Assembly: GCF_014055025.1 (NCBI RefSeq)
Contig: NZ_CP059571.1
Location: 1,240,001-1,304,000 of the forward strand
DNA from: Neisseria bacilliformis
Lineage (GTDB): Bacteria > Pseudomonadota > Gammaproteobacteria > Burkholderiales > Neisseriaceae
DNA length: 64,000 nucleotides
Reading direction: 5' to 3'
A model generated the notes under the pieces. The model made no database searches. It was not told the DNA's origin and saw only the letters and a list, made by a program, of their open reading frames with translations. Shown here piece after piece: positions 2,129 through 47,360 of this stretch. Numbering within the stretch: the first letter of the stretch is position 1; each line of letters starts with the position of its first letter. A program made the translations under genes and the position numbers.

Positions 2129-2161
2129 GGCGGCGCAGCCGTTTGGCGGATAAGAAACGAA

Positions 2162-2200: not shown

Positions 2201-2495
2201 TTTGCTTGAACGGCACAAACCGCGTGCGTCGCCTCGGGGCGACACACCCTACAACGGTTCGGCATGGCACGATAACGCTTTCCGTAGGTCGGGCATTTAT
2301 GCCCGACATTTTTCAAATTTGCCGGTGTTTGTCGGGCATAAATGCCCGACCTACTGCGTTGCGTTTTCAGACGGCCTCTGCCGTCGAAGTGCCGTAGGTC
2401 GGATACCCGTATCCGACACTCAATGCGGGAAAACTCGGGGAAACGTCGGATTCAAAAATCCGACCTACAACTACCCGCTGCCCGACAAAAACGGG

Positions 2496-2538
2496 AGGCC
2501 GTCTGAAAAATCCGTGTAACCGGTTTTTCAGACGGCCT
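2496..2538. terminator. DUS inverted-pair hairpin
   Basis: Perfect DUS inverted pair lying 3' of the minus-strand gene that ends at 2556; likely its terminator. Confidence 0.75.
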
Positions 2539-2555
2539 TTATCGGCGGGCGGTGT

Positions 2556-6779: not shown

Positions 6780-7100
6780 GGGCTTGGTTGCCGTTCGGGT
6801 TTGGGTGTGCGCCGGTGGCGGTGTTTGGTGTTTTTGCTTCGTTGAGGCTGTGCGTTCAGACGGCCTCTTTGCGGCTTGGAGGCCGTCTGAAAACGGGTGT
6901 GGTGCGCAGGGCGTGGGTAGGGTGTGTCGCCCCGAGGCGACGCACGCGTTCCCTGCCGTTCAACGCATCTGCGCCTTCCCGACAATCCGAAACCGCGTGC
7001 GTGGCTGCGCCACACACCCTACCTGCGGGGTAGAGGCCGTCTGAAAAGCGCAGCTTCAAGATACCCTGCCAGTCTGCCGTCATTGGTTTTTCAGACGGCC
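6780..7100. repeat. Intergenic repeats between trkH and trkA
   Basis: Contains several DUS copies, a plus-strand GTAG palindrome (6917-6948) and a minus-strand partner (6994-7022) facing each other like a BIME unit, and DUS tails. ORFs here translate repeats only. Confidence 0.75.
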
Positions 7101-8495: not shown

Positions 8496-8616
8496 GTTGT
8501 TTCAAATGGGGAAAACGGTTTTGCTTTGTTGCAACGGCTTTTCAGACGGCCTCAAAAGCCTCAGAGACCGTCTGAAAGCGCAGCTTCGGCGCAGCCAAAA
8601 CCTTGTCTGAAAAACC

Positions 8617-9489: not shown

Positions 9490-9533
9490 GTTTTACTCCG
9501 TTGTTTAAAAATTCACGAGTGAAAGCAGGCGGC

Positions 9534-9539
9534 AATATA
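9534..9539 (-). promoter_or_regulatory. Extended -10 for yicC
   Basis: On the minus strand reads TGTGCTATATT, an extended -10 (TGN before the hexamer) 45 bases upstream of the yicC ATG. No clear -35 is seen. Confidence 0.45.
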
Positions 9540-9552
9540 GCACATTTGCCCG

Positions 9553-9561
9553 TGCTATAAT
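9553..9561 (+). promoter_or_regulatory. Extended -10 for rph
   Basis: TGCTATAAT is a perfect extended -10, 28 bases upstream of the chosen rph ATG. Confidence 0.6.
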
Positions 9562-9588
9562 TTGCATTTTTTAACAGAAAGAGCCGCC

Positions 9589-10314
9589 ATGACCGCCCCC
9601 GCCCGTACCGAACGCGCCGCCGACGCACTGCGCCCCGTGCGCATCACCCCGCATTTCCTGCCCCACGCCGACGGCTCCGCCCTCATCGAATGCGGCAACA
9701 CCCGCGTCATCTGCACCGCTTCGATAGATGAAAACGTGCCGCCCTTCCTGCGCGGACAGGGCCAAGGCTGGATCACTGCCGAATACGGCATGCTCCCCGC
9801 CGCCACCGCCACCCGCAGCCGCCGCGAAGCCGCCGCCGGCAAACAAAGCGGCCGCACCCAGGAAATCCAACGCCTCATCGGCCGCTCCCTGCGCGCCGCC
9901 GCCGACCTGCAAAAACTGGGCGAGCGGCAAATCCTCATCGACTGCGACGTCATCCAAGCCGACGGCGGCACCCGCACCGCCTCCATCACCGGCGCATACG
10001 TCGCCCTCGCCCTGGCCGTGCGCAAACTTCTTTCAGACGGCCTCATCGCCGAAAACCCGCTGGTGTCGCAAATCGCCGCCGTCTCCGCCGGCATCGTCGG
10101 CGGCGTGCCGCTGTTGGATTTGGACTACCCCGAAGACTCCGGCTGCGACAGCGACGTGAACATCGTGATGAACGGCGCAGGCGGCATCATCGAAATCCAG
10201 GGCACCGCCGAAGGCGCGCCCTTCTCCCCCGCCGAACTCGCCGCACTGCTGCGCCTGGCGCAAAAAGGCATCGGCGAACTCATGGCCGAACAGAAACGGG
10301 CACTGGCGGCGTAA
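9589..10314 (+). CDS. rph: Ribonuclease PH
   Basis: This phosphorolytic 3'-5' exoribonuclease trims tRNA precursors and forms a hexameric ring. Family blocks are clear: [23 protein letters not shown], the phosphate-binding stretch [16 protein letters not shown], and [16 protein letters not shown]. The ATG at 9589 (AGAAAGAG upstream) is chosen over an in-frame ATG at 9562, which lies on top of the -10 sequence. The product of 241 residues has the usual length. A DUS lies inside the gene (S-D-G-L-I codons), as is common in Neisseria. Confidence 0.95.
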
Positions 10315-10776
10315 GCCAAGGCAGGGCGGGTAGCAAGAGGCCGTCTGAAAACCTGATGAGGCTGCGCCGAACCGTTGCAGTGTGCGTCGCCCCGAGGCAA
10401 CGCACGCGGCTTTTGCCGTTTAAGCGAGAGACCGTCTGAAAGTCGTGTTACGCGGCTTTCAGACGGCCTTTCGTTCTTTGGCCGTGGAGACGGATGTTGC
10501 AAACCGCAAACCGCGTGCGTGGCTGCGCCACACACCCTACGCAGTTGTAGCTCGGATTCTTGAATCCGACGTTTTTCCATATCGGATGTCGGATACGAGT
10601 ATCCGACCTACTGGAAGCGTTATCGCGCCATGCCGAACCCGTCGTAGGGTGTGTCGCCCCGAGGCGACGCACGCGGTTTGTGCCGTTTAAGCAAGAGGCC
10701 GTCTGAAACCGTAAAACAGGTTTTTGGCTGCGCCGAAGCTGCGCTTTCAGACGGCCTCTTGCCGTTTGCGCAACGC
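10315..10776. repeat. Intergenic repeat cluster downstream of rph
   Basis: No gene is supported. Contains GTAG-type palindromes at about 10378-10410, 10512-10540 (minus) and 10644-10675 (plus). An inverted pair of TCGGAT-type palindromes lies at 10547-10570 and 10588-10611, with DUS copies (some one base off, AGACCGTCTGAA) and a DUS tail repeat at 10720-10755. Confidence 0.75.
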
Positions 10777-13488: not shown

Positions 13489-13874
13489 GGGAAGAGGCCG
13501 TCTGAAAAAGGGGCGGATTATAGGGCAAACGGCAAGGCAGAGGCCGTCTGAAAAGCCAAAACGCGTTTTCAGACGGCCTCTGGGCTGCTAAACCTTATTG
13601 GAAACTTCAAGATTGTGTTTTAAGGATATGAACAGGCAGATTAAGGAAACGGCGGCAACCCAGATTGGGCAGGCGCGGGAATAATGGCAGAATGGGGCTG
13701 GCGTAGGGTGTGTCGCCCCGCGACGCACGCGGTCTGTGTCGCGCAAGCAATCCACGTGTTTCCCAAGCCTAAACCGCGTGCGCGGCTGCGCCACACACCC
13801 TGCCTTAACGGCAGAGGCCGTCTGAAAAACGCAAAACGCGCTTTCAGACGGCCTTTGTTTGGACTCGGTTCGTG
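13489..13874. repeat. Intergenic repeats between the FG-GAP gene and DUF4124 gene
   Basis: Contains DUS copies with hairpins near 13541-13580 and 13814-13856, and facing GTAG palindromes at 13703-13731 (plus) and 13775-13803 (minus). A short stretch (about 13590-13680) has no recognised feature. Confidence 0.7.
13517..13522 (-). promoter_or_regulatory. -10 hexamer upstream of the FG-GAP gene
   Basis: Perfect TATAAT on the minus strand, 29 bases upstream of the ATG at 13488; no obvious -35. Confidence 0.45.
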
Positions 13875-14354
13875 TTAACGGGCAGATATGCCGCTGCCGC
13901 TTCCTAAAAGCTTCGCCAAATCCGCTTCTGCTTGTTTGACGGCATTTTCCAAATCGGCAATTCGCGCCTGATATTTGGCATAGTTTCTCTCATTGCCATA
14001 ACGGATTTTCTTTCCTTCTTCCAATGCTTTTTTTGCATCACTCAAGCGACGACGTGCAGCGGCAATTTGTTCTTGACTGGCTGTTGATTGTTGGCTTGCG
14101 CCTAAGGTGGCAACAGAAGGCTGCTCTGACAGCTGTTTTTCATATGTTTGCGCTGATTGATAGCTGCCGGGAGAAGGGGGCAGCGACGAATATATGGCCG
14201 GACGGCCTAAATCGCTTTTCGCGCAGTTGGCACCCGGCGCAGGGGTGGAGGTGTAGGTGGTGCGCCCTTTGCTGTCGGTGCAGGTGTAAACGGAGGCGGC
14301 GCAGGCGGGCAAGGCGGCGGCCAGCAGCAGGGCGGCGGCGTATTTCGTTTTCAT
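13875..14354 (-). CDS. DUF4124 domain-containing secreted protein
   Basis: The start at 14354 follows AAAGGAAACCC. The 159-residue product begins with a Sec signal peptide ending near A-C-A-A. It then has the DUF4124 beta-hairpin module: V-Y-T-C-T-D-S-K-G-R-T-T-Y-T-S-T-P, usually found in small periplasmic proteins of beta- and gammaproteobacteria. The second half is a predicted coiled coil (Q-I-A-A-A-R-R-R-L-S-D-A-K-K-A-L-E-E-G). Function is unknown. It starts 22 bases after the stop of the small membrane protein gene upstream, so the two are probably one operon. Confidence 0.85.
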   Translation of the reverse strand: MKTKYAAALLLAAALPACAASVYTCTDSKGRTTYTSTPAPGANCAKSDLGRPAIYSSLPPSPGSYQSAQTYEKQLSEQPSVATLGASQQSTASQEQIAAARRRLSDAKKALEEGKKIRYGNERNYAKYQARIADLENAVKQAEADLAKLLGSGSGISAR

Positions 14355-14376
14355 GGGTTTCCTTTCTTTTCGGGGG

Positions 14377-14577
14377 TTAAAACCAGAGATACCAGGCCAG
14401 CAGGAGGACGGCGGCAACGGCAAAGTTGATGGCAAAAGCGATCCGCCACTGCCGTTTGGAGGGCGGGGCGGCTTTCAGGCCGCTGCGGCTGCGGCGGACG
14501 AGGAAGAAGGGCGAGAGCAGGACGGAGACGGCGGCGGTGAGGATAACGGCCGCATAGTAGGCTTTTTCCGTGGTCAT
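14377..14577 (-). CDS. Small two-helix membrane protein
   Basis: The 66-residue product has two hydrophobic segments (residues about 9-27 and 47-65) joined by a basic loop (R-R-S-R-S-G-L-K), so both termini would be periplasmic by the positive-inside rule. The ATG follows AAAGGAAAAGG. A -10 (14619-14624) lies upstream. It precedes the DUF4124 gene by 22 bases. No family recognised. Confidence 0.7.
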   Translation of the reverse strand: MTTEKAYYAAVILTAAVSVLLSPFFLVRRSRSGLKAAPPSKRQWRIAFAINFAVAAVLLLAWYLWF

Positions 14578-14618
14578 GCCTTTTCCTTTCCGGCGGGCTG
14601 CCGTTTGTTCATGACGCG

Positions 14619-14624
14619 ATTATA
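14619..14624 (-). promoter_or_regulatory. -10 hexamer of the small membrane protein/DUF4124 operon
   Basis: TATAAT on the minus strand 42 bases upstream of the ATG at 14577. Confidence 0.4.
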
Positions 14625-14654
14625 TAACGGGAATCCGCGGGCGGGGCAGGGGAA

Positions 14655-14695
14655 AGGCCGTCTGAAAACCCGTAAAACAGGTTTTCAGACGGCCT
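14655..14695. terminator. DUS inverted-pair hairpin
   Basis: A 41-base DUS hairpin with TTTTTA on one side. The same hairpin, including its loop, is repeated at 14824-14864. Confidence 0.7.
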
Positions 14696-14741
14696 TTTTA
14701 TTCCCCAAAAACATCCAAACATCCGTCGCAAACCCGAAAAC

Positions 14742-14773
14742 CGCGTGCGTCGCCTTGGGGCGACACACCCTAC
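14742..14773 (-). repeat. GTAG-headed REP-like palindrome
   Basis: Minus-strand copy of the TCGCC/GGCGA stem variant, lying between the two identical DUS hairpins of this 310-base gap. The rest of 14578-14887 holds only the promoter and these repeats. Confidence 0.7.
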
Positions 14774-14823
14774 TTTAAAAACCGCCTTTGCATTATCTGG
14801 GCAAGTGTTTCCCACTGCAAAAA

Positions 14824-14864
14824 AGGCCGTCTGAAAACCCGTAAAACAGGTTTTCAGACGGCCT
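14824..14864. terminator. DUS inverted-pair hairpin after dsbA
   Basis: DUS hairpin 23 bases beyond the dsbA stop, on the downstream side of that minus-strand gene. Confidence 0.75.
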
Positions 14865-14887
14865 TTGCAACAGGCTGCGGCCTGCGT

Positions 14888-15583
14888 TTATTTGTTGGCG
14901 GCGCGGGCGGCGGCTACGCCTTTGCTGCGGGCGGGGGCTTGGGGGGCGGGTTCTTTCATGCCGCGTTCCTGGCGCACTTTGGCGATCATTTCGTCCACTT
15001 TGTTCATGGAGGCGTTCCAGTCGCCGCCGGTGAATTTCATTTTGTATTTGCCGCCGACGATGATGGTGGGGGTGTTTTCAATCTGCATTTGTTCGGTGAG
15101 GTCGGCCATTTGTTTGGCTTGGGCTTCGTTGCCGAAGGATTCGTAGGCGGCGAGCAGTTTTTTGCCGTCGAAGCTGCTTTGCGCGCCTGCCCATTGTTTG
15201 AAGGCGGCGGGGTCGGCGAGGTTGATGCGCTGCTCGAAGATGGCGTTGAACACGGGCATGTTGGCCTGGTGGCGCAGGTTGCTGCTGTTGACGGCGGCGG
15301 CGATGCGGGCGAGCTGCATGTGTTCGGGCTGCCAGACGACGTGGATGGGGCGCAGGTAGGTGTCGGACGCCCATTTTCTGCTGTGTTTTTCCATTTCAGG
15401 TTCGAGGTGGTAGCAGTGGATGCAGAAGTAGCCGAAGAATTCGGCGACTTCGATTTTGCCGTTCTGCTGCTGGGCGAGGGGTTTGTCGAGCACGGTGTAG
15501 TCCTGGCCTTCGACGAGGGCGGCCTGGGCGGAGGCGAGGCCGAGGGTGAGGGCGGCGGCGAGGAGGGTGTGTTTCAGTTTCAT
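14888..15583 (-). CDS. dsbA: Thiol:disulfide interchange protein DsbA
   Basis: This periplasmic oxidoreductase introduces disulfide bonds into exported proteins and is re-oxidised by DsbB. The 231-residue product has a Sec signal peptide (residues 1-21), the thioredoxin-fold active site F-C-I-H-C-Y with Cys54 and Cys57, and the cis-proline loop N-T-P-T-I-I-V-G. The C-I-H-C centre differs from the C-P-H-C of E. coli. Its ATG (AGGAAACACC upstream) lies 20 bases after the stop of the SPOR-domain gene, so they are likely co-transcribed. In Neisseria DsbA is needed for pilus and competence functions, consistent with the transformable lifestyle seen here. Confidence 0.95.
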   Translation of the reverse strand: MKLKHTLLAAALTLGLASAQAALVEGQDYTVLDKPLAQQQNGKIEVAEFFGYFCIHCYHLEPEMEKHSRKWASDTYLRPIHVVWQPEHMQLARIAAAVNSSNLRHQANMPVFNAIFEQRINLADPAAFKQWAGAQSSFDGKKLLAAYESFGNEAQAKQMADLTEQMQIENTPTIIVGGKYKMKFTGGDWNASMNKVDEMIAKVRQERGMKEPAPQAPARSKGVAAARAANK

Positions 15584-15603
15584 GGTGTTTCCTGTGGTTG
15601 GGG

Positions 15604-16431
15604 TTATTGTGCGGGGCGGGCGAAGCTGTCTATGCCTTTGCTTTGCAGTTCGCGGCGGGTTTGCGCGGCGGCTTCGGCGGAGGCGGGGGCGGTTTGCACG
15701 CGGTACATGGTTTTGCCCTGTATTTGGGCTTCGACGACGCGGGTGTCTACGCCGGCGGCGGCGAGGCGGGCGCGTTGGGATTCGGCTTTGTCGCGGCTGC
15801 CGTAGGAGCCGGCCTGGACGATAACGCCGCCGCCGCTGTTTCTTCCGCTGCGTTCGCTGCGTGCGCCGTTTTCATTGCCGGCCTGTCCGCTGAGGGCGGC
15901 TTCGGCTTTGCGGCGGTCGGCTTCGCGGTCGGCGCGTTTTTGGTCGCGGCCGATTTTGCCGTTGAGGATTTGCTCGGGGCCGGGTTTGGCTTTGTCGCGG
16001 CGGGGGCGTTCGGCGTGGGGTTTGGTTTTGGTGTCGGGTTTGCCGCTATCGGGCAGCAGGTCGGGCACGCCGGGGATGGTTTCCGGCTCTTTGCCGCTGT
16101 CGGACTCTTTGCCTTCTTTGCCTTCTTGGCCGCTTTCGGGTTGGGAGGCGGTTTGTTCGGGGGTGTTTTTTTGTGCCGGTTTGCCGCTTTCGGGCGGGAC
16201 GGGTTCGGCTTCGGGCGCGGAGGCGGGCTTTTTGGGCTCGGGCGCGGGTTCGGGTTTTTTGGGGGAGAGGATTTCGGGCGGGGTGAGTTCTTTTTCTTCG
16301 ATGGGGGCTTTGAAGTCGCGTTTGCGGCTGCTTTCGAGGGTGTACACGAGGCCGCCGATGATGACGGTGGCCAGAAGGAGGCCGACGATGAAGCCGGTGA
16401 GTCCTTTGCCGTGGGCTTTTGCTGTTTTCAT
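15604..16431 (-). CDS. SPOR-domain protein (FtsN-like)
   Basis: The 275-residue bitopic membrane protein has a short basic cytoplasmic tail, one membrane helix (residues about 11-31), and a long Pro/Glu/Lys-rich periplasmic linker. A C-terminal SPOR domain (about residues 195-272, starting G-V-I-V-Q-A-G-S-Y) follows. SPOR domains bind denuded peptidoglycan at division sites, so a septal role like FtsN is likely, though FtsN identity itself is not proven. An extended -10 is seen at 16496-16501. dsbA follows in the same direction. Confidence 0.85.
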   Translation of the reverse strand: MKTAKAHGKGLTGFIVGLLLATVIIGGLVYTLESSRKRDFKAPIEEKELTPPEILSPKKPEPAPEPKKPASAPEAEPVPPESGKPAQKNTPEQTASQPESGQEGKEGKESDSGKEPETIPGVPDLLPDSGKPDTKTKPHAERPRRDKAKPGPEQILNGKIGRDQKRADREADRRKAEAALSGQAGNENGARSERSGRNSGGGVIVQAGSYGSRDKAESQRARLAAAGVDTRVVEAQIQGKTMYRVQTAPASAEAAAQTRRELQSKGIDSFARPAQ

Positions 16432-38691: not shown

Positions 38692-38777
38692 GCCGACATG
38701 GTGAAATTGGTAGACACGCTATCTTGAGGGGGTAGTGATCCTAGATCGTGCGAGTTCAAGTCTCGCTGTCGGCACCA
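38692..38777 (+). tRNA. tRNA-Leu (anticodon GAG), CCA encoded
   Basis: An 86-base class II tRNA. The acceptor stem is G-C-C-G-A-C-A with T-G-T-C-G-G-C, the anticodon stem C-T-A-T-C/G-G-T-A-G encloses loop TTGAGGG (anticodon GAG), there is a variable arm and T-loop TTCAAGT, and the 3' end is ACCA. Its 3' end (38753-38778) is the attachment site of the mobile element that follows. Confidence 0.95.
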
Positions 38778-38778
38778 A
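38753..38778 (+). other. attL core (tRNA-Leu 3' end)
   Basis: The sequence from AGTTCAAGTC to CACCAA at the tRNA 3' end is repeated with one substitution and one missing base at 47009-47033. Confidence 0.75.
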
Positions 38779-38786
38779 CATCCGAA

Positions 38787-38815
38787 AACAGCCCCACCGC
38801 GCGGGCTGTTTTTTT
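38787..38815 (+). terminator. Rho-independent terminator after tRNA-Leu
   Basis: AACAGCCC / GGGCTGTT stem with an 8-base loop and a T run. A near copy lies at 47041-47069 beyond the right attachment site. Confidence 0.85.
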
Positions 38816-38819
38816 ACAT

Positions 38820-38996
38820 CCAACGCCGTCCAACGCCGTAAACCAAACGCCCGCCCAGTAAGGATTTGCGCCTGTTTCCCTCTTTCCGTTTTCCCGTCTT
38901 GGCAGTCTAACGCCGTCTAATCCCATCCGATTGAATCAACCAAACTCAGGGGGTATTATTTGGGGTATCTGCAAATATCCCCGAAAAAATACCCCC
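38820..38996 (+). promoter_or_regulatory. Putative integrase arm sites and int operator
   Basis: Contains CCAACGCCGTCCAACGCCGT at 38820-38840 and GTCTAACGCCGTCTAA at 38905-38920, both recurring at the right end (47072-47087 and 47159-47174). Inverted GGGGTATT motifs follow (38949-38957, 38962-38968, then ATATCCCC 38975-38982 and AATACCCCC 38988-38996) immediately before the integrase ATG. Roles are inferred from position. Confidence 0.45.
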
Positions 38997-38999
38997 AAA

Positions 39000-40196
39000 A
39001 TGCCGCTAAACGACCGCCAAATCAGAAACGCCAAGCCTGCCGCCAAGCCCTACAAGCTGGCCGACGGCGGCGGGCTGTATTTGGCCGTTACCCCCGCAGG
39101 CGGGAAATCGTGGCGGCTGAAATACCGTATCGACGGGAAAGAAAAGCTGCTGACTATCGGCAAATATCCCGCCGTTTCCCTGCTGGAAGCCCGCCAAGCC
39201 GCCGAACAGGCGCGGGCAGGCTTGGCAAGGGGCGCAGACCCCGCCGCCGCCAAGCAACAGGCCAAAGCACAGCGGCAGGCCGCACTGCAAAACACGTTTG
39301 AGAACATCGCCCGCCGCTGGTATGCCGACAACCGACACCGCTGGAAGCCCAACCACGCCGCCCGCCTGCTGGCCTATTTGGAAAAGGACGTTTTCCCCGC
39401 CATCAGCGGCGAGCCGATAGACGCAATCAGGGTAAACGACATCAAAAGCCTGTTAGCCGACGTTTTGGCACGGGGAGCAATCAACACGGCGGAAAAAATC
39501 CGCGATTGGATAGGGGCGGTTTTCGACTATGCGGCCATGCTGGAAATCACAGACCGCAACCCCGCCCGCGCCCTGAAAGGCTTTCTGCCCAAGCGTGCAA
39601 CCGAACATATGCCCGCCCTGCCACGCGAAGAACTGACCGAGTTTTACCGCCGCTTGACCGCCGCCGACATCAAGCGGCAGAACAAAATAGCCCTGCTGCT
39701 GATTATGCTGGTATTTGTGCGCAATACCGAACTGCGCGGCGGCAGATGGGCGGAAATTGATTATGAAGCCCGCCTTTGGACAATCCCCGCCGAACGGATG
39801 AAACGCCCGCGCGTGCATACCGTGCCGCTGGCCGCCTGGCCGCTGGAACTGCTGCGCGAACTGCACACCCTCACCGGCAACACGCCCTATCTGTTTCCGA
39901 GCCGCACCAACGCGGAAGGCTACATATCCGACGCAACATTAACGCGCATCATCGAGCGGATGGGCTACAAAGGCATTGCCACAATCCACGGCTTCCGCAG
40001 CTTGGCAAGCAGCGTATTGAACGAACAGGGATTCAATCGGGACGCCATCGAACGGCAGCTTGCCCATGTAGAGGAAAACAGAATCAGGGCGGCATACAAC
40101 CGCGCCGACTACATGGCCGAGCGGCGAGAAATGATGGACTGGTACGCCGACTTTCTGCGGCGGCACTATCAGGCCGCCATGACGGACACCCGATAA
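39000..40196 (+). CDS. int: Tyrosine recombinase / integrase with DUF4102 arm domain
   Basis: The ATG at 39000 (M-P-L-N-D-R-Q-I-R-N-A-K) is the standard start; an in-frame TTG upstream would translate the att region. The 398-residue protein has the DUF4102 arm-binding domain (G-G-G-L-Y-L-A-V, K-L-L-T-I-G-K-Y-P), a SAM-like core-binding domain, and a catalytic domain. The catalytic domain holds the Arg of R-N-T-E-L-R-G-G-R-W, H-G-F-R, a second His in Q-L-A-H-V, and the Tyr in A-A-Y-N-R-A-D-Y. All catalytic positions appear intact. It belongs to the P4-type family that targets tRNA genes and lies next to its attachment site. Confidence 0.95.
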   Translation: MPLNDRQIRNAKPAAKPYKLADGGGLYLAVTPAGGKSWRLKYRIDGKEKLLTIGKYPAVSLLEARQAAEQARAGLARGADPAAAKQQAKAQRQAALQNTFENIARRWYADNRHRWKPNHAARLLAYLEKDVFPAISGEPIDAIRVNDIKSLLADVLARGAINTAEKIRDWIGAVFDYAAMLEITDRNPARALKGFLPKRATEHMPALPREELTEFYRRLTAADIKRQNKIALLLIMLVFVRNTELRGGRWAEIDYEARLWTIPAERMKRPRVHTVPLAAWPLELLRELHTLTGNTPYLFPSRTNAEGYISDATLTRIIERMGYKGIATIHGFRSLASSVLNEQGFNRDAIERQLAHVEENRIRAAYNRADYMAERREMMDWYADFLRRHYQAAMTDTR

Positions 40197-40198
40197 AG

Positions 40199-40223
40199 AC
40201 CGCCCCGAAAGGCGGCTTTTTTT
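40199..40223 (+). terminator. Rho-independent terminator after int
   Basis: CCGCC/GGCGG stem followed by a run of seven T. Confidence 0.75.
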
Positions 40224-40290
40224 ATCTGTCATGATTTGCGCGGGCGTGAAACTGTTTGACCCGTTCGAGTAAAGGCCGTCTGAAACCGCC

Positions 40291-40314
40291 GCCCGCAGAA
40301 ATGCGGGCTTTTTT
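40291..40314 (+). terminator. Second terminator between int and alpA
   Basis: GCCCGCA/TGCGGGC stem, GAAA loop, then T6. Confidence 0.75.
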
Positions 40315-40325
40315 ACGCCCGATTG

Positions 40326-40360
40326 AAAGGCCGCCTGAAACACCGTTCGGGCGGCCTTTT
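40326..40360 (+). terminator. Third terminator-like hairpin before alpA
   Basis: AAAGGCCGCC and GGGCGGCCTTTT arms, a DUS-like hairpin (AGGCCGCCTGAA). The remaining bases to 40480 show no other feature. Confidence 0.6.
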
Positions 40361-40480
40361 CCCTTTCCAAGCAAAAAAAGCGGCCTTTGTACTGAAACGG
40401 GACTTTGCGGGGGAAAGCCGCCCGCCCGCCTACCATCCGCCCATCATCCAACCACGCCCAACACGGCAGAAAGGCAGACT

Positions 40481-40699
40481 ATGCAAACCATACCGAGCTT
40501 TATCGACGCCAACGGCCTTGCGCAGGCTTTCAGCGTTTCCGTATCGACAATTTGGAACTGGAACAACCCCAAAAGCCGCCACTACCGCCCAAACTTTCCC
40601 AAGCCCGTCAAAGTATCCGCCAACGCTACCCGCTGGCCTGCCGACGAAGTGGCCGCCTACATGGCCGATTTAGCCGCAGCACGGGAGGCCGCCCAATGA
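40481..40699 (+). CDS. AlpA-family regulator / excisionase
   Basis: The 72-residue product starts at 40481 after AGAAAGG. It has the AlpA/excisionase winged-helix layout: a helix-turn-helix (G-L-A-Q-A-F-S-V-S-V-S-T-I-W-N-W), then F-P-K-P-V-K-V-S-A-N-A-T-R-W-P-A-D-E-V, the R-W stretch typical of AlpA. In P4-like elements such proteins control integrase expression and excision. Its TGA overlaps the ATG of the next gene (ATGA), so the two are translationally coupled. Confidence 0.85.
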   Translation: MQTIPSFIDANGLAQAFSVSVSTIWNWNNPKSRHYRPNFPKPVKVSANATRWPADEVAAYMADLAAAREAAQ

Positions 40700-40980
40700 A
40701 AAACGCCCGAAACACCGGTAAAGGCATTTCAGGCGCGGCACAGAAAGCGAGCCGCCATTGTAACCCTTTCCGCCCCAACAGCCAAAACGCGGAAATCCTT
40801 GCCATCCTGCAAAGCGGGCAGAGCCTTACCCATTACGAAGCCGCACAGATGGGCATCATGGCCTTTACCGCCCGCATCAACGAAATCAGGGCGGCGGGCT
40901 TCCCCGTTGTCTGCACCATGACCGCCCATGAGAACAAGCACGGCAAAACCGTCAAGCGCGGAGTATTCACGCTGGCATAA
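40696..40980 (+). CDS. Winged-helix DNA-binding protein of the element
   Basis: The 94-residue product overlaps the alpA stop by ATGA. It has a basic N-terminus and a helix-turn-helix (A-E-I-L-A-I-L-Q-S-G-Q-S-L-T-H-Y-E-A-A-Q-M-G-I-M-A-F-T-A-R-I-N-E-I-R), followed by a wing-like strand pair ending K-R-G-V-F-T-L-A. Similar small helix-turn-helix proteins occur in phages and islands; a regulatory role is likely but the target is unknown. Confidence 0.75.
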   Translation: MKNARNTGKGISGAAQKASRHCNPFRPNSQNAEILAILQSGQSLTHYEAAQMGIMAFTARINEIRAAGFPVVCTMTAHENKHGKTVKRGVFTLA

Positions 40981-40981
40981 C

Positions 40982-41004
40982 TGCAATTATTGCAATTTTA
41001 TTGC
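40982..41004 (+). promoter_or_regulatory. Repeated TGCAATT motif before the Mor-like gene
   Basis: Three tandem TGCAAT/TTGC blocks (TGCAATTATTGCAATTTTA then TTGC) in an AT-rich gap; possibly an operator or promoter region. Confidence 0.3.
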
Positions 41005-41025
41005 GTGAAATATCGTTTTCAAGCA

Positions 41026-41496
41026 ATGATATGGCAGAAAACAACAGCAAACACCCCTAACCTTGCCGAATTGGAAAACATGAAACTGCCCAAACTCACC
41101 CCCGAAAACCTGCCGACTGTCCGCCCCTACCTGCCCGATACCTTCCTGCAACTGGAAACCGTGGCCGGTACGCAAACCGCCCTACTGCTGGTGTCCGAGC
41201 ATGGCGGGGAACAATACCCCGTTGCCAAAGGCGCAACGAAACAGGGCAGGCGGCGCACCGCCCGTATTGCCGCCCTTATCGGCGAAGCCGCCGCCCTGCG
41301 CCTTGCCGCCGCCTACGGACAACAGCGCAACATTGCCATACCGGCCTGCCGCAAGGCGCGGGAAGTGCTGCGCAACCGCGAAATCCGCGCCGCCTACGAT
41401 ATGGCGGAAGGTTCGGGCATGACCCCCGCCGCCCTTGCCCGCCGCTACGGATTGAGCCAACGGGCAATCTTCAACATCCTCAAACGCAGCGAATGA
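41026..41496 (+). CDS. Mor-like transcription activator of the element
   Basis: Product of 156 residues from ATG 41026 or 138 from ATG 41080; neither start has a strong ribosome site. The C-terminal part matches the Mor/Martha-type helix-turn-helix of Mu-like phages: R-N-R-E-I-R-A-A-Y-D then M-T-P-A-A-L-A-R-R-Y-G-L-S-Q-R-A-I-F-N-I-L-K-R. Mor activates middle transcription in phage Mu. Here it would be expected to switch on the downstream operon or respond to a helper. It is followed after 11 bases by the DUF1804 gene. Confidence 0.75.
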   Translation: MIWQKTTANTPNLAELENMKLPKLTPENLPTVRPYLPDTFLQLETVAGTQTALLLVSEHGGEQYPVAKGATKQGRRRTARIAALIGEAAALRLAAAYGQQRNIAIPACRKAREVLRNREIRAAYDMAEGSGMTPAALARRYGLSQRAIFNILKRSE

Positions 41497-41507
41497 AAGG
41501 ATAAACC

Positions 41508-41993
41508 ATGCATCACGAAACGACACGCCAAGCCCTGCGCAACGCCTACATCAACGGCGCAAACATGGAAACGGCGGCGGCAGACTGCGGGATATGCCTG
41601 CGAACCGCCTACGCATGGAAGGCCGAGGCCAAGGCCGCAGGCGACGACTGGAACAGACTACGGGCGGTGTACACGCTGTCAAACGTGGAGGCGACGGCGC
41701 AGGGCGTGCTGCGCCGCATGATGGGGCAGTATGACAAGGCGGCGTTGGATTTGGAGGCCGACCCCGATTTGCCCGCCGTCAAGCGTGCCGAAGTGCTGGC
41801 GACGCTGGCCGACGCGTTGGCGAAAACCGTCGCCGCCAACAAGCGGCTGATGCCGGAAACCTCGGATTTGGCGGCGGCAGTGCGCGCGCTGGGCTTGCTG
41901 ACGGCCTTTACGGTGGAACGTTATCCGCAGCACGCCGCCGCGCTGGCCGAAATCATCGAGCCTTTCGGCGAAGTGCTGGAAAAGGCCGTCTGA
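41508..41993 (+). CDS. DUF1804 protein (Mu-like, small-terminase-like)
   Basis: The ATG follows AAAGGATAAACC. The 161-residue protein starts with a helix-turn-helix (A-A-A-D-C-G-I-C-L-R-T-A-Y-A-W-K-A-E-A-K-A-A-G-D-D-W) and has a helical C-terminal half, matching DUF1804 of Mu-like prophages, thought to be a small terminase-type DNA-recognition subunit. No large terminase is present in the element. In phage satellites a lone small terminase can redirect helper packaging; that role here is inference. The last four codons and TGA come from an embedded DUS (E-K-A-V-stop). Confidence 0.7.
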   Translation: MHHETTRQALRNAYINGANMETAAADCGICLRTAYAWKAEAKAAGDDWNRLRAVYTLSNVEATAQGVLRRMMGQYDKAALDLEADPDLPAVKRAEVLATLADALAKTVAANKRLMPETSDLAAAVRALGLLTAFTVERYPQHAAALAEIIEPFGEVLEKAV

Positions 41994-42249
41994 ACTTGAC
42001 AACCAAACCCAGAGATTGCAGAATCGCGGCCTCTCTCTCCAAAAAAACTTAGCCCGAATCGGCAGGGTGAAACGCCGATTTTTCACGCCTATATCTTTCA
42101 GGCCGTCTGAAAACTTTTCAGGCGCAGCCGTCAAGCTATGGCGGTGTCTGCCAACCGTAAGGCGCAGGCCGGTTTCTAAGTTACCGGAGAGAGCACCGCC
42201 CCCAATTTTGGGGATTCTCAAACTCTCAAAAAACTTAGGAGGCCATCAA
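41994..42249 (+). ncRNA. Structured leader / possible antisense-type regulatory RNA
   Basis: A 256-base gap with unusual order. CTCTCTCC near 42031-42037 is complementary to GGAGAGAG near 42184-42191. A CAAAAAAACTTAG motif (about 42036-42050) is repeated as CAAAAAACTTAGG directly at the ribosome binding site (about 42224-42239). CCCC-AATTTT-GGGG forms a local hairpin. The layout (complementary tracts plus a copy of the RBS region) recalls phage immunity leaders such as C4-type RNAs. Identity is uncertain; a DUS also lies at about 42102-42113. Confidence 0.3.
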
Positions 42250-42567
42250 ATGGCAAAACTTCAAACCCGCGCCGACGCGCAATCTATCCAAACATCCCCC
42301 GTTTCCCATCAGGAAAAAACCGTAACCATTCCCCGCGCCCTTGCCGAACAGGCATCAACATCCCTGTTTGACTTCATCGCCTTTCTCAAACACGCCGACA
42401 CCATCGGCATGACCGCCCGCCGCCTGCTGGAAACAGGCGACATCCAAACCGCCCGATACCAGCTTGAACTGCTGGCATCGCTGGCCGAAAACGTCCGCCC
42501 GCCCGAGCCGCACGCCTATGCCCTTTGGGAAGCCGTAGAGGCCGCCGACAAGGCGCAGGGCTGCTAA
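42250..42567 (+). CDS. Small helical protein of the element
   Basis: The ATG is fixed by a perfect AGGAGG at 42237-42242, the strongest ribosome site in the element. The 105-residue product is soluble and helical, with D-F-I-A-F-L-K-H-A-D-T-I-G-M-T-A-R-R-L-L-E-T-G-D and a Pro-rich turn near the end. No family recognised. Because its start is overlapped by the structured leader, its translation is probably regulated. It could be an early control or derepression protein. Confidence 0.65.
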   Translation: MAKLQTRADAQSIQTSPVSHQEKTVTIPRALAEQASTSLFDFIAFLKHADTIGMTARRLLETGDIQTARYQLELLASLAENVRPPEPHAYALWEAVEAADKAQGC

Positions 42568-42709
42568 TCCCCCATTCCCGCCCCGCACAGGCTTTCAGAC
42601 GGCCTTTTGCGGCGCGGGGCATATCTACCCCTTTCCCATACCCCAAACCCCGCCAAAAGCGCACACAAAGCCATTATTGCGCCAGTTGCGCGGGAAGAAA
42701 GGCAAAGCC

Positions 42710-42931
42710 ATGTTTATCGCCGTTGTATCCATCCCCAACCCCAAAGCCCGCGCGGGCGAAGCCTTTACACACGTTTGGGCATCGCTTGGTGCATACCCCA
42801 CACCCGAACAGGCGCAGGCCGCTATCGACCTCTACGCCGCAGAAAACCTAGTACAGGAAAGCCGTATCAGCCAAGCCCTGCCGCGCTTTTTCTTTCAAGG
42901 CAGGCGGCTGCCTGATTCTGCAAGGGGGTAA
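42710..42931 (+). CDS. Small conserved-type protein, paralogue 1
   Basis: The 73-residue product starts after AGAAAGG. It reads I-A-V-V-S-I-P-N-P-K-A-R-A-G-E-A-F at the N-terminus and ends L-P-R-F-F-F-Q-G-R-R-L-P-D-S. It is clearly paralogous to the N-terminal part of the protein starting at 43177. Function unknown. It precedes the next gene by three bases. Confidence 0.65.
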   Translation: MFIAVVSIPNPKARAGEAFTHVWASLGAYPTPEQAQAAIDLYAAENLVQESRISQALPRFFFQGRRLPDSARG

Positions 42932-42934
42932 GCC

Positions 42935-43180
42935 GTGAAAGACGCAACCGCCGTTCTACTCGCAGGGCTGGTAAAACTGGATTTAAGCACAGAGGAAAAG
43001 GCGCGGATTCTTACCCTGCCGCCCTGCCCGAAATGCGGCCAAACATCCTGCGCCCACCCCGAAAACCAAGCAACCGCCGCCCAAATGCGCAGCCTGCTGC
43101 ATGCCGTGCTGGAAGCGGCAGGCGCAAGCCCCGAAAGCATGGGCATCCTGCCCGAAACGCCCGAAAGGAGAACGCAATGA
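42935..43180 (+). CDS. Small cysteine-containing protein of the element
   Basis: GTG start at 42935 with AAGGGGGT upstream. The 81-residue product has a C-P-K-C-G-Q-T-S-C-A-H motif that may bind zinc, inside helical flanks. Its stop overlaps the next ATG (ATGA at 43177-43180), showing translational coupling. No family recognised. Confidence 0.65.
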   Translation: MKDATAVLLAGLVKLDLSTEEKARILTLPPCPKCGQTSCAHPENQATAAQMRSLLHAVLEAAGASPESMGILPETPERRTQ

Positions 43181-43677
43181 AACCCTATATCGCCGTTGTA
43201 ACCATCCCCAACCCCCGCCCCGTGGCCGGAGAAGCCTACACAGAGTGCTACGCCCCCATCGGCGAGTTTCCCACCCGCGAAGAAGCGGAAGCCGCCTGCG
43301 ACATCTACGCCGCCCGCCATCCCGTTATCAAACGGCACATCAGCCAAACCCTGCCGCCCTTCTTCTTTCGCGGCGCAAGCCCCCGACGCCATCCTGATAG
43401 GGGCCGCCGAATGAACCGCCCCGACTTATCCGACCTCAAAGCCGCCGCGCAAGGCCGCTGGCCTGCCATCCATGCCGCGCTAGGCATCCCCGCCGACCTG
43501 CTGGACAAACGCAGACACCGTCCCTGCCCCCATTGCGGAGGCAAAGACCGCTACCGCTACACAGACTACCAAGACGGCGGCGGCTACATCTGCAACCAAT
43601 GCACCCCCGAAGGCGGCAGCGGCTTTGATTTACTCATGCTGGTGTATGGCTGGACATTTGCCGAAGCCGCCCGCTAA
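43177..43677 (+). CDS. Paralogue 2 fused in frame to a primase zinc-ribbon; ends at an internal TAA
   Basis: The frame starts with a paralogue of the 42710 protein (I-A-V-V-T-I-P-N-P-R-P-V-A-G-E-A-Y to F-F-F-R-G-A-S) and runs on into a primase zinc-binding domain (C-P-H-C-G-G-K-D-R-Y-R-Y and C-N-Q-C-T-P-E-G-G-S-G-F-D). The junction is a C5 tract at 43380-43384. With one fewer C, the first protein would end S-P-D-A-I-L-I-G-A-A-E-stop at an ATGA overlapping ATG 43411, the natural start of the primase. So the fusion probably arose by slippage. The TAA at 43675-43677 separates the zinc domain from the TOPRIM part, which continues in the same frame. Confidence 0.65.
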   Translation: MKPYIAVVTIPNPRPVAGEAYTECYAPIGEFPTREEAEAACDIYAARHPVIKRHISQTLPPFFFRGASPRRHPDRGRRMNRPDLSDLKAAAQGRWPAIHAALGIPADLLDKRRHRPCPHCGGKDRYRYTDYQDGGGYICNQCTPEGGSGFDLLMLVYGWTFAEAAR

Positions 43678-44463
43678 GTGGCCGCCTTGCTTGGCATGAG
43701 TCCGTCTGAAAACCCGCCCGCCGCAAGGCAGCCTGAAAGCCCCGAGCCGAAACCCGACAAACAGCCCGAACTAATCCGCCTTTTCAACGCCGCCGCCCCG
43801 ATAGACGGCACGCCCGCCGCCCTGTACCTCAAAGGGCGCGGCCTTTCGCCCGAACTGTTCGACGCCTGCCCCGATTTGCGCTACTGCCCCGCCTTGCCCT
43901 ACTGGATAACCCGCTGCGCCGACAACCGCCCCGCCTGCATCGGCAGCTGCCCCGCCATGCTGGCCGCCATCCGCACCCCCGACGGCACATTGCAGGGCTT
44001 GCACAAAACCTACCTGCAAACAGACGGGCGCAAGTTCGCAGGCATCCACCCCGACACGGGCGACCCCCTGCCCGCCAAGAAAATGGCCGCCCGCTACGGC
44101 GGAGCATTGCACGGCGCGGCGGTACACCTTTACCCGCCCGATTTTCAAGGCCGCATCATCGCAGCGGAGGGCATAGAAACCGCCCTTGCCGCATGGCAGC
44201 TGTTCCAAACACCGGCCATAGCCGCCCTGTCCGCCCACGGCCTGCAAAACCTGCAATGGCCGCACGGCACGGAAACCCTGCTAATCGCCGCCGACAACGA
44301 CCATAGTCAAACAGGCCGCAAGGCCGCCGAAGCCCTCACCCGCCGCGCTGCCCGCGCAGGCATAGGCGGCGGCATCTGGCAGCCTGAAACAGCGGGCTTT
44401 GACGCACTGGACGAACTGAACAGGCGGCAGGCCGCTACAAACGCCCCAAAACCGCCCGTATAG
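43678..44463 (+). CDS. TOPRIM part of the element primase (separated by an in-frame stop)
   Basis: The open frame resumes directly after the TAA with V-A-A-L-L-G-M-S and runs 261 residues. It has the primase TOPRIM signatures I-I-A-A-E-G-I-E-T-A-L-A and L-L-I-A-A-D-N-D-H-S. Zinc-ribbon plus TOPRIM primases of this kind are normally one protein of about 350 residues (43411-44463 here). A single C-to-T change (CAA to TAA) would explain the stop. Re-initiation at GTG 43678 or ATG 43696 could still make the TOPRIM domain, but an intact primase needs readthrough. An exact AGGCAGCCTGAA (Kingella-type uptake dialect) lies at 43726-43737. Confidence 0.7.
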   Translation: MAALLGMSPSENPPAARQPESPEPKPDKQPELIRLFNAAAPIDGTPAALYLKGRGLSPELFDACPDLRYCPALPYWITRCADNRPACIGSCPAMLAAIRTPDGTLQGLHKTYLQTDGRKFAGIHPDTGDPLPAKKMAARYGGALHGAAVHLYPPDFQGRIIAAEGIETALAAWQLFQTPAIAALSAHGLQNLQWPHGTETLLIAADNDHSQTGRKAAEALTRRAARAGIGGGIWQPETAGFDALDELNRRQAATNAPKPPV

Positions 44464-44558
44464 CCCGCTTCCCCATTCAGACGTCCCACCCCCTTACCCA
44501 TGCGCCCAAACCGCAGGAAAACGCAACAGAGGCGCAGCAAACACAGAAAGCAGACACC

Positions 44559-46253
44559 ATGAGCGCAGCAAACGACCCGTTAGCCCACTTTGAACCCGTG
44601 GCCGACCGCCCCTACTACGACTGCACCCGCAGCGGCGTTTACTACTGCCACATTGAAACCGACAAAGACGGCGGCATCATCGAAAAACCGCCCCTGCGCC
44701 TGTCCGACCAAATCGAACTAATCGGGCGGGGCATCGACGCGGGCGGCCACTACTACCGCATCATCCAATGGCGGGACACCCTCACCCGCCAAAGCAAAAC
44801 CGCCGCGCTATCCTGCGCCGACATCGGCACACCGCCAAGCTGGCAGCGTCTGCAAGGATGGGGCATAACCGTCATGAGCGGACGGCGCAAACGCGAACTG
44901 CTGGCCGACTACCTGCAAACAGACGGCCAAACCACCCCATACACCGTAACCGATAAAGCAGGCTGGCACGGCGGCGGCTACATCCTGCCCAACGGCGAAA
45001 CCATCGTTTCAGACAAAGAACACATCATCTACAACGGCGACCCCGCCCCCGCCTACACCCAAAGCGGCAGCCTTGCCGACTGGCAGCGCGAAATAGCCGC
45101 CCGCGCCGCCGGTAATTCCCGCTTGCTGCTGGCAATCGGCACGGCACTGGCCGCCCCGCTGCTGCACCTGTTCGGCGAAGCAAACGGCGGCTTCCACATC
45201 TACGGCGACTCATCCGACGGCAAAACCACCGCCGCCCTTGTCGGCCTGTCCGTCTACGGCACGCCCGCCGCCCTCAAACTCGCATGGCGCGGCACGGATT
45301 TAGGCTTTTCCAATGCCGCCCTTGCCCGCAACGACGGTTTGCTTGTTCTCGACGAAATCGGCGAAGCCCACCCCAAAACCGTAAGCAAAACCGCCTATTC
45401 CGTCATCAACGGCAAATCCAAGATTCAGGGCGCGAAAGAGGGCGGCAACCGCCCCGCCCAAGAATGGCGCATCCTGCTGTTCTCAACCGGCGAATACGCC
45501 CTGCAAGCCTACATGGAACGGGCGGGCGAAACATGGGAAGCAGGGCAGGCCGTGCGCCTTCCCAGCATCCGCGCCGCCGCCCGCTACGGCATCTTCGACA
45601 CCCTGCACGGCCACCCCAACGGCGCAGCCCTTGCCGACCACCTGCAACAGGCCGCCCGGCAATACCACGGCACGGCCATCCGCGCATGGATAGCCAAACT
45701 GCAAACCCTGCCCGCCGACACCATCCGCGCCGCCTTTGAAGCATTCCTTGCCGCCCTGCCCGAGATGGACGGCCAAGCCGCCCGCGTCGCCCGCCGCTTC
45801 GCCCTTGCCGCCGCCGCGCTGGAACTGGCCGCCGACATAACCGCCCTGCCTGCCGGTGTCGGCATGGCCGGTATCAAGCAATGCTTTGACGAATGGCACG
45901 CCGACAACGGCAGCGGCAAACATGAAGACCACCAAATCATCCGCAACATGGCCGCCTTCATGCAGCAACACGCCCACGGCCTGCGCTTTGCCGACTGGCG
46001 CGACGAATACACCAACCGCGACCATGCAGGCTACCGCAAAGACAACGGGCAGGGCGAAAAGGCCGAATACTGGATAATCCCCGTCATTTTCGAGGACGAA
46101 ATCATGAAGGGCAGAGACAAAAACAAAGCCTGCGCCGTCTTGCACGGCATCGGCTGGATGATGAAAGCGGCGGATGGCCGCTGGAAATGCAAGAAATACG
46201 GCAAAGGCCGCTTTTATGTACTACTCGGCGCAGAGCCGCCCGAAGCCGAATAA
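44559..46253 (+). CDS. DUF927-family replicative helicase of the element
   Basis: The 564-residue product starts after AGAAAG. Its N-terminal half matches DUF927 (G-W-H-G-G-G-Y-I-L-P-N-G-E, H-I-I-Y-N-G). The ATPase core has Walker A G-D-S-S-D-G-K-T-T, a Walker B-like L-L-V-L-D-E-I-G and F-S-T-G-E. The C-terminal region (about 450-560) looks like a winged-helix DNA-binding part. Such proteins pair with TOPRIM primases in islands and satellites to start replication. Here the gene sits between the primase and the iteron array, the expected place for an origin-binding helicase. A rho-independent terminator follows. Confidence 0.88.
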   Translation: MSAANDPLAHFEPVADRPYYDCTRSGVYYCHIETDKDGGIIEKPPLRLSDQIELIGRGIDAGGHYYRIIQWRDTLTRQSKTAALSCADIGTPPSWQRLQGWGITVMSGRRKRELLADYLQTDGQTTPYTVTDKAGWHGGGYILPNGETIVSDKEHIIYNGDPAPAYTQSGSLADWQREIAARAAGNSRLLLAIGTALAAPLLHLFGEANGGFHIYGDSSDGKTTAALVGLSVYGTPAALKLAWRGTDLGFSNAALARNDGLLVLDEIGEAHPKTVSKTAYSVINGKSKIQGAKEGGNRPAQEWRILLFSTGEYALQAYMERAGETWEAGQAVRLPSIRAAARYGIFDTLHGHPNGAALADHLQQAARQYHGTAIRAWIAKLQTLPADTIRAAFEAFLAALPEMDGQAARVARRFALAAAALELAADITALPAGVGMAGIKQCFDEWHADNGSGKHEDHQIIRNMAAFMQQHAHGLRFADWRDEYTNRDHAGYRKDNGQGEKAEYWIIPVIFEDEIMKGRDKNKACAVLHGIGWMMKAADGRWKCKKYGKGRFYVLLGAEPPEAE

Positions 46254-46284
46254 GCAAAGGCCGTCTGAAAAACCCCGTTAAACA

Positions 46285-46306
46285 AACCGCCGCAAGGCGG
46301 TTTTTT
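46285..46306 (+). terminator. Rho-independent terminator after the DUF927 gene
   Basis: AACCGCC/GGCGGTT stem, GCAA loop, T6; a DUS precedes it at about 46257-46268. Confidence 0.85.
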
Positions 46307-46462
46307 CATGCCCTCAAACAGCCAAACCTCGCAACATGCCCTTTTCCGCCCCACAGATGCACGCAGACGGCCTTTTCCAACCTTTCCCATACCAACCATT
46401 ATCACACCGCCAAACGCGCTAAAAACGCCGCTTTTGCGCCCTGCGTGAAGTTTTCCTATCAG

Positions 46463-46486
46463 GAAACAATCAGCCGTGATTGTTTC
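46463..46486 (+). repeat. Perfect 10-bp palindrome beside the iterons
   Basis: GAAACAATCA and TGATTGTTTC are separated by GCCG, 40 bases before the first iteron. No T run follows, so it is not a classical terminator; it may be an initiator site or regulator operator. Confidence 0.6.
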
Positions 46487-46511
46487 ATCAAAAAAACGCT
46501 ATACGCGCGAG

Positions 46512-46774
46512 AAAAACGCGTTTTTAGTGGGTATGTGGGTATGCGCCTCTGAAAGCCTTGATATACGGGCATCTTTGCATACCCACTGAATAAATTTACG
46601 TGGGTATGTTGTGGGTATGCTGGGTATGAGTTAAAAAACAAACACTTGGAAGCACCGCATACCCACATACCCACGGGCTACCCAGTAAATTTATGTATGT
46701 GGGTATGCACTTTTTACAATATAAACAAAAAGATAAAATGTAAATTCCCACATACCCACTAAAAAACGCGTTTT
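46512..46774 (+). other. Putative replication origin: iteron array of the element
   Basis: Nine perfect GTGGGTATG nonamers lie in both orientations: direct at 46527, 46535, 46600, 46611 and 46699; inverted at 46578, 46658, 46666 and 46751. One-mismatch copies lie at 46620 and near 46676. An AT-rich stretch (46708-46750) lies between the last two, and the array is bracketed by AAAACGCGTTTT palindromes (46512-46525 and 46763-46774). No reading frame explains it. It lies directly after the primase and helicase genes, as in P4-like replicons. Confidence 0.75.
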
Positions 46775-47008
46775 GCGTTTTATATACGCATGTTTTCCCG
46801 CCTGCCCGACGGCCACCCTTACGGTATATTCAATCCGAATGCAAGCCAACCACGAAAAAAAACCGCCGGAAACGGCGGCGCAGATGACGGCGGAAAAAAC
46901 ACAAAACAGCCAAAAAACCGCCTGACCTTTGCAAAATGGGGGTATTTTTGGGGGTATTTTGGTTTTTGCTGTTTAAACAGTTTATAAAAATCAATGTATT
47001 AAGTATTT
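46775..47008 (+). other. Right end of the element
   Basis: No convincing gene; short frames at 46790-46987 and 46839-46925 have no recognised product. Two direct copies of GGGGGTATTT (46938-46947 and 46950-46959) match motifs at the left end before int and are probable recombinase or excisionase sites. Confidence 0.5.
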
Positions 47009-47033
47009 AGTTCAAGTCTAGCTGTCGCACCAA
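47009..47033 (+). other. attR core
   Basis: Near copy of the tRNA-Leu 3' end (one substitution and one missing base) with no tRNA body upstream. Confidence 0.75.
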
Positions 47034-47360
47034 TATAAAAAACAGCCCCAACGTGCGGGCTGTTTTTTTACGTCTAACGCCGTCTAATGCCGTAAACCAA
47101 AATCCCGCCGTATAAGGCTTTGCATCAAATTCACGCCCGCCGTTTCCCCGCCTTGACCGTCTAACGCCGTCTAATCCCGTCTGATTGAATCGACCAAATC
47201 GCGGGGGTATTGGAGGCATCTGCAAACACCCTCGAAAAATACCCCCAAAATGCCGCTAAACGACCGCCAAATCAGGAATGCCAAGCCCGCCGCCAAGCCC
47301 TACAAGCTGGCAGACGGCCTTTTCTGTATGCAGATTTTGTTGAAAACCGGCCTTACGGTG
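47034..47360 (+). pseudogene. Left-end stump of a second related element (truncated integrase)
   Basis: This stretch aligns with 38779-39056: terminator (47041-47069), GTCTAACGCCGTCTAA sites (47072-47087 and 47159-47174), GGGGGTAT motif, then an integrase start at 47249 reading M-P-L-N-D-R-Q-I-R-N-A-K-P-A-A-K-P-Y-K-L-A-D. The similarity ends abruptly at CAGACGGCCTTTT (about 47314), where a DUS-like sequence begins. It is the remnant of an older element inserted at the same site. The rest to 47407 has no recognised feature. Confidence 0.75.

Follow-up and report, generated by a model that had tools for sequence, protein, structure and literature searches.

A phage-inducible chromosomal island (PICI) that uses a Mu-like helper is already known: PmCI172 of Pasteurella is described as a satellite of a Mu-like phage (PMC6092414) that is packaged in small capsids (PMC6893505). 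According to PMC6092414, all Gram-negative PICIs of that study come from Gammaproteobacteria. The element phiAH14b of Pseudomonas sp. ANT_H14 (KU708005) is packaged in the capsids of its helper AH14a; its description lists no capsid gene and no identified terminase (PMC4936722). Here we describe a comparable element of Neisseria bacilliformis, which lies within a stretch of 64,000 nt (hereafter the window) of a genome consisting of a single contig of 2.49 Mb. It is an insert of 8.26 kb located directly after the gene for tRNA-Leu(GAG), and judging from its genes it is probably an integrated PICI- or P4-like phage satellite whose cassette of a Mor and a DUF1804 gene fits a Mu-like helper. Its relatives lead us to favor, with somewhat less assurance, the view that this Neisseriaceae satellite lineage keeps its backbone for integration and replication and switches helper by replacing a cassette of 3–4 kb, made up either of lone small terminases from several families or of a Mu toolkit (Mor, Gam, head protease-scaffold), so that it could parasitise transposable as well as unrelated tailed phages.

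Comparison with described satellites

Of the relatives we found whose packaging has been demonstrated by experiment, phiAH14b is the closest. It shares with the window element the order integrase, AlpA or AlpA-like gene, small genes, TOPRIM and DUF927 helicase, the DUF927 proteins showing 35.8% identity across 67% of the query. In contrast, phiAH14b has a size of 16.8 kb and one tail-assembly-like gene, and no lone small terminase is reported for it (PMC4936722). The initial annotation had likened the gene order of the window element to that of helper-dependent P4-like and Gram-negative PICI satellites, and a packaged relative with the same order supports this comparison. PmCI172, which we liken to the window element by description and not by sequence, differs in being gammaproteobacterial and in encoding a capsid homologue. 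The Gram-negative PICI EcCICFT073 is an island with AlpA as its activator, where the window element has an AlpA-like gene, and likewise has its own primase, but in the part of the island seen a single 'DNA primase family protein' is followed by capsid and head decoration genes, and its packaging is of the cos type without TerS. For helper-embedded PICIs (PMC10111431) the primase family includes DUF927 hits, and one relative of our element (L191, see below) is similarly embedded in a Mu-like tail operon, whereas the window element occupies a tRNA gene; the main text of PMC10111431 uses none of the terms 'Mu-like', 'phage Mu' and 'gp45'. The PICI size of about 15 kb, a figure for Gram-positive PICIs, is reached neither by the window element nor by the 23 relatives whose size could be measured (8.4–12.5 kb); two further hallmarks of Gram-negative PICIs are an AlpA or MerR regulator close to the integrase and an attachment site that prophages never use, on which the AlpA-like gene and the tRNA-Leu(GAG) loci described below bear. 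With P4-like satellites, whose features are given here partly from general knowledge, the element shares the tRNA site, an AlpA/Vis-like regulator, replication by primase and helicase, and iterons, and Mor would be the functional counterpart of P4 delta. The P4 genes Sid, Psu and Ogr/delta, among which Sid, Psu and delta define P4, have no match among the scanned proteins of the window element. Literature on Neisseria phage satellites, PICIs and tRNA-Leu islands showed no such element in titles or displayed abstracts; the satellite family is apparently new in this taxon, and it is notable for its cassette exchange.

Boundaries and gene content

The element spans window positions 38778–47033. 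The tRNA-Leu(GAG) gene in front of it (38692–38777, + strand, ARAGORN) provides the left attachment site (attL) with its 3' end (38753–38777), which is repeated at approximately 47009–47033 (+) as the displaced and diverged right site (attR). The initial annotation's view of an 8.3-kb element bounded by copies of the tRNA 3' end is thus confirmed, with an imperfect right copy: it contains mismatches and is missing one base, and a search for exact repeats of at least 13 bp, the same as used for the relatives, returned none for the window element. The similarity extends past the tRNA, with 47009–47318 matching 38753–39068 at 83.6% identity. Because this match continues beyond the tRNA end, we read 47037–47318 (+) as the relic of a second related element to the right, consisting of the leader and the beginning of the integrase gene, a few tens of codons long (integrase residues 10–46 match 47208–47318). 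Together with the diverged tRNA end, the relic indicates that the tRNA-Leu(GAG) site has probably been occupied at least twice.

All genes lie on the + strand in the order integrase, AlpA/excisionase-like regulator, HTH_39 protein, Mor, DUF1804, small genes, zinc-ribbon/TOPRIM primase and DUF927, followed by iterons. The tyrosine integrase (39000–40196, from an ATG start; a TTG at 38931 is also open) matches PF13356, PF22022 and PF00589, with hidden Markov model (HMM) E-values of 3.7e-16 to 9.2e-28, as well as phrog_1 (9.1e-64). The two genes that point to Mu are a Mor/C-family late transcription activator-like gene (41026–41496; PF08765, 1e-9; phrog_836, 1.3e-26) and, close behind it, DUF1804 (41508–41993; PF08822, 6.5e-42), which we infer to be a Mu-type small terminase and which has no large terminase adjoining it. 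Replication would be served by a primase in two parts, i.e. an open reading frame (ORF) with the primase zinc ribbon at its end (43177–43677; PF08273, 1e-11) and the TOPRIM half (43678–44463; PF13362, 5.5e-18; PF23639, 1.1e-21), by a DUF927 replicative helicase-like protein (44559–46253; PF06048, 5.4e-54; phrog_1139, 6.3e-72) and by an iteron array at 46527–46759, the putative origin. Here GTGGGTATG occurs in nine exact copies, counted on both strands, versus 0.09 expected across the whole window; many relatives, too, have element-specific repeated octamers downstream of DUF927. HMM matches and the iteron count therefore bear out the integrase, Mor-like, DUF1804, primase, DUF927 and origin assignments of the initial annotation. 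The AlpA-type regulator (40481–40699) fared less uniformly: it matches a PHROG excisionase (phrog_1553, 1.5e-8), but Pfam AlpA (PF05930) stays below its cut-off (13.8 of 21 bits).

Matching the initial annotation, no structural (capsid, tail), lysis or conjugation family was found among the scanned proteins, the short ORFs downstream of DUF927 lying outside the scan; the lone exception is DUF1804, which weakly matches a small-terminase family (phrog_4102, E 0.007). Neither relaxase or mating families nor MuA/B transposase, TerL (large terminase) or portal families were seen among the element proteins scanned, so that the Mu share consists of Mor and DUF1804 only. The remaining genes are a winged-helix HTH_39 protein (40696–40980; PF14090, 2.6e-8), which is common to a sister element in ssrA of the same genome (91% at the DNA level), a small protein with a homologue in that sister (42250–42567; blastp cluster 3, no PHROG match), a second one resembling the N-terminal part of the ORF at 43177–43677 (42710–42931; no Pfam or PHROG match) and a small cysteine-containing protein (42935–43180; no Pfam match).

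A family of related elements with exchangeable cassettes

A search of the family, as the initial annotation had proposed, revealed that the same backbone is common. At E up to 1e-10, and counting fragments, 29 of the 46 genus genomes contain DUF927 relatives; across the family, a profile search at E up to 1e-60 found DUF927 in 35 of 83 genomes, which represent 6 of 12 genera. For comparison we used 34 loci: the window element, the ssrA sister and 32 fetched loci (places at contig edges, G022:C11 and G033:C97, and the short fragment G012:C7 were left out of the fetch); L057, L066 and L071 are without the primase zinc domain and stand outside the cassette counts. In 31 of the 34 loci the integrase is preceded by a tRNA or tmRNA gene (10 Leu(GAG), 13 Leu(TAG), 3 Leu(CAA), 2 tmRNA and one each of Phe, Met and Arg); the remaining three have no integrase match or start at a contig end. 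In 23 loci the above sizes are set by an exact repeat of 13–48 bp, one copy of which is at the tRNA end and the other past DUF927. The initial annotation had held that complete relatives with structural or conjugation genes would turn the element into a decayed prophage or a conjugative element; instead, these loci carry single helper-directed genes, namely a small terminase, a head protease or a tape-measure N-terminus, as identified by HMM scans of representatives and not of every member, with the relatives' protein set only partly scanned. Among the best 30 loci with secG and tRNA-Leu(GAG), nine contain a full-length related integrase, five contain remnants and 16 give no integrase match, unrelated integrases being possible in the latter; among these 16, the sequence beyond the tRNA amounts to about 40 bp in L280 and about 650 bp in L288. 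A further integrase gene, either complete or disrupted, follows the element at L045, L052 and L062, which suggests tandem integration. Among 80 distant DUF927 loci on viral contigs, one (L235) has a homologue of the two large terminases and one portal that were searched; in L192 and L235 the contig that bears the DUF927 element also contains phage genes.

The cassettes between integrase and primase were counted as blastp single-linkage clusters, with representatives identified by HMM. A Terminase_2 small terminase is present in 8 loci, KilA-N in 7 others that are without a Terminase_2 gene, and Gam in 7 further loci, each of which also carries Mor and four of which carry a Mu-type head maturation protease. 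An Sf6-type small terminase is found in the ssrA sister, and DUF1804 in the window element only. L055 has an extra GP3_package small terminase downstream of DUF927, and the element family thus comprises three annotated small-terminase families (Sf6_terminase, Terminase_2 and GP3_package); at L048 a gene at 14744–15067 resembles solely the N-terminus of a tail tape-measure protein. Integrase clades mostly track the integration site, and cassette types are scattered over both trees (by inspection, no formal test having been applied). The exchange is best seen in the pair L044 and L046, whose integrases are 99% and DUF927 proteins 98% identical and whose flanking DNA agrees on both sides to 89–97%: within the 3.8 kb between integrase and DUF927 there is no blastn match above 150 bp, and the AlpA-like gene is followed by Mor, Mor and Gam in one locus and by HTH_39 and KilA-N in the other. 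Some relatives carry cargo, e.g. a type II DNA methyltransferase and a neighbor without PADLOC match upstream of AlpA (L061 as oriented, 799–3446) or a Fic-domain protein downstream of DUF927 (L050, 2321–3439, − strand). Of 10 cargo proteins submitted to PADLOC, this methyltransferase and a toxin-like protein of the ssrA sister (PD-Lambda-2_A) matched strongly, and two further matches were weak (E 0.003–0.005).

Relationship to Mu-like phages

Elsewhere in the genus, DUF1804 was located at 16 other places. In the 15 that were fetched, Mor is always upstream, and in 14 a large terminase is downstream (in L088 a phrog_38 terminase large subunit, then a Mu portal); the sixteenth (G022:C104) has TerL alongside by coordinates. 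A Mu-type TerL also lies downstream of DUF1804 in 78 of 80 IMG/VR loci (the best 80 of 267), at a gap of 36–1,530 bp; as for the two others, L125 leads into lysis-like genes and ends, and L160 has transposase genes after DUF1804. None of the 80 loci matches the DUF927, primase or integrase of the window element. In phage SuMu, too, DUF1804 adjoins the terminase (PMC3447690). This usual pairing of DUF1804 with a Mu-type TerL, together with Mor and Gam in the seven other elements, forms the link to Mu, and it supports the initial annotation, which had taken Mor and DUF1804 as signs of a Mu-like helper. The same annotation had called the setting unusual; DUF1804 is present in one of the 34 loci, and a Mu-like helper as such is not new for a PICI, given PmCI172 (PMC6092414). 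A further case is the viral contig L191 (IMGVR_UViG_2751185881_000012), on which integrase, AlpA, primase, DUF927, Mor and the Mu head protein gpT occur together, the element sitting in a Mu-like tail operon with a gene like Mu gp44 on one side and gp45 on the other. The limits of this element are uncertain, as a search for end repeats gave nothing longer than 11 bp.

The split primase and the sister element

The two primase parts of the window element are separated by an in-frame TAA (43675–43677) directly followed by GTG, a feature that the initial annotation did not mention. The same TAA codon is found in the ssrA sister (L003 9237–9239, − strand). Of the 31 loci with both primase domains, only these two and L052 (at another codon) are interrupted; the frame is uninterrupted in the other 28, where it is open to the end of the match in 23 and stops only at about codon 350 in five, which we read as the natural end. 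In view of the primase stop and the imperfect attR, the window copy may now be inactive. DUF927 itself is under purifying selection compared with two relatives (dN/dS 0.238/0.648 and 0.241/1.014).

The sister occupies ssrA at 1.178–1.188 Mb of the same genome (L003, approximately 6000–15990). Window positions 43016–46279 are 99.4% identical to it over 3,265 aligned positions, the primase stop included, whereas its integrase has only about 40% identity to that of the window. It carries an Sf6-type small terminase (PF20901) that shares 62% identity, across 118 residues, with the small terminase of a resident tailed prophage, and as cargo a toxin-antitoxin-like pair, presumably HigBA, with the PADLOC-matching toxin mentioned above. 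The DUF927 proteins of both elements are 99.8% identical, but the iterons differ, GTGGGTATG in the window as opposed to GTTGTTATG-like units in the sister (L003 6300–6440 and 14190–14370); therefore either the protein tolerates the difference or another factor reads the iterons. The genome also contains, at tRNA-Phe, a related element that is shorter and lacks DUF927 (L107, approximately 7400–12900), as well as integrase fragments at tRNA-Leu(TAG) (L108).

Possible mechanism and alternative explanations

A satellite of this kind could work as follows. A helper phage would turn on the AlpA-like regulator, the integrase would excise the element, primase and DUF927 helicase would replicate it from the iteron array, and its DNA would be packaged in the helper particle. 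P4 delta is an Ogr homologue that boosts the late genes of P2; in parallel, Mor might boost the late genes of the helper. DUF1804 would provide the satellite with a small terminase of its own and direct the TerL of the Mu-like helper to satellite DNA. Where relatives carry Gam, it may shield linear concatemers against host nuclease.

Several observations weigh against this picture of a satellite with a Mu-like helper. The attR is imperfect and the primase frame contains a stop. The Mu-like prophage of the same genome (L305–L306, 1.69–1.711 Mb) has a Gp27-type small terminase and another type of TerL, and protein searches of the genome returned neither a second DUF1804 nor a TerL of the DUF1804 type, although in other genomes they did pick up diverged homologues (33–51% identity and upwards). 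Mu-cassette elements show no clear tendency to share a genome with a DUF1804-type prophage (3 of 7 versus 13 of 46 genomes, the lone DUF1804 of the own genome uncounted); one genome of the set holds both L044 and a DUF1804-type Mu-like prophage (L101). PHROGs labels DUF1804 as a DNA-binding protein only, a fold comparison matches it weakly to small terminases, and the distant DUF927 loci on long viral contigs were checked solely for TerL and portal homologues. That the genome is without any Mu-like prophage had been considered and was rejected when a search with the Mu portal revealed the prophage with its different terminase type; the family search had missed its TerL (23.5 bits, cut-off 22), so such genome searches can miss. 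In this prophage, early/head and terminase/portal genes stand in an unusual relative order, and it is apparently rearranged.

The explanation that competes most with the proposed role of DUF1804 accepts the satellite but assigns DUF1804 and Mor to regulation of the element or interference with the helper, packaging then proceeding via a pac or cos signal. The PHROGs label and the weak fold match just mentioned fit this, as do the seven elements with KilA-N in place of a Terminase_2 gene; however, DUF1804 occupies the slot before TerL that is held by the Gp27-type small terminase in the other Mu-like prophage, and the element family contains three annotated small-terminase families. We consider this alternative possible, if rather doubtful. 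It appears improbable to us that this is an integrative element which moves by conjugation, or chiefly through natural transformation, and not in phage particles. For transformation speak five GCCGTCTGAA uptake sequences in the element and the precedent of natural competence moving another satellite in the laboratory (PMC13376191). Across the window, AGGCCGTCTGAA is present in 113 copies. We take GCCGTCTGAA and AGGCCGTCTGAA to be the DNA uptake sequences of Neisseria, yet uptake sequences are sparser in the element (five in 8.26 kb) than in the remaining 55.7 kb of the window (120); moreover, no relaxase or mating family was found among the scanned proteins, and neither conjugation nor transformation explains lone phage terminases and head genes. 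Still less credible is a decayed prophage that has lost its structural genes. Primase stop, imperfect attR and the lack of a matching helper in the genome would suit a decay of the window copy, but the DUF927 relatives in 29 of the 46 genus genomes, with their shared backbone, narrow size range, a primase frame intact in 28 of 31 loci and a DUF927 under purifying selection, argue against it, as independent decay would not yield the same gene set.

Implications

The sole Mu-like helper system that we met in the literature is the Pasteurella pair PmCI172/PmCI86. The Neisseriaceae elements prompt one to ask how a transposing phage can be exploited by a satellite. Mu replicates by transposition, and Gam together with a private small terminase suggests an answer. 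With pairs such as L044 and L046 and a family that is common in the genus, helper switching becomes testable.

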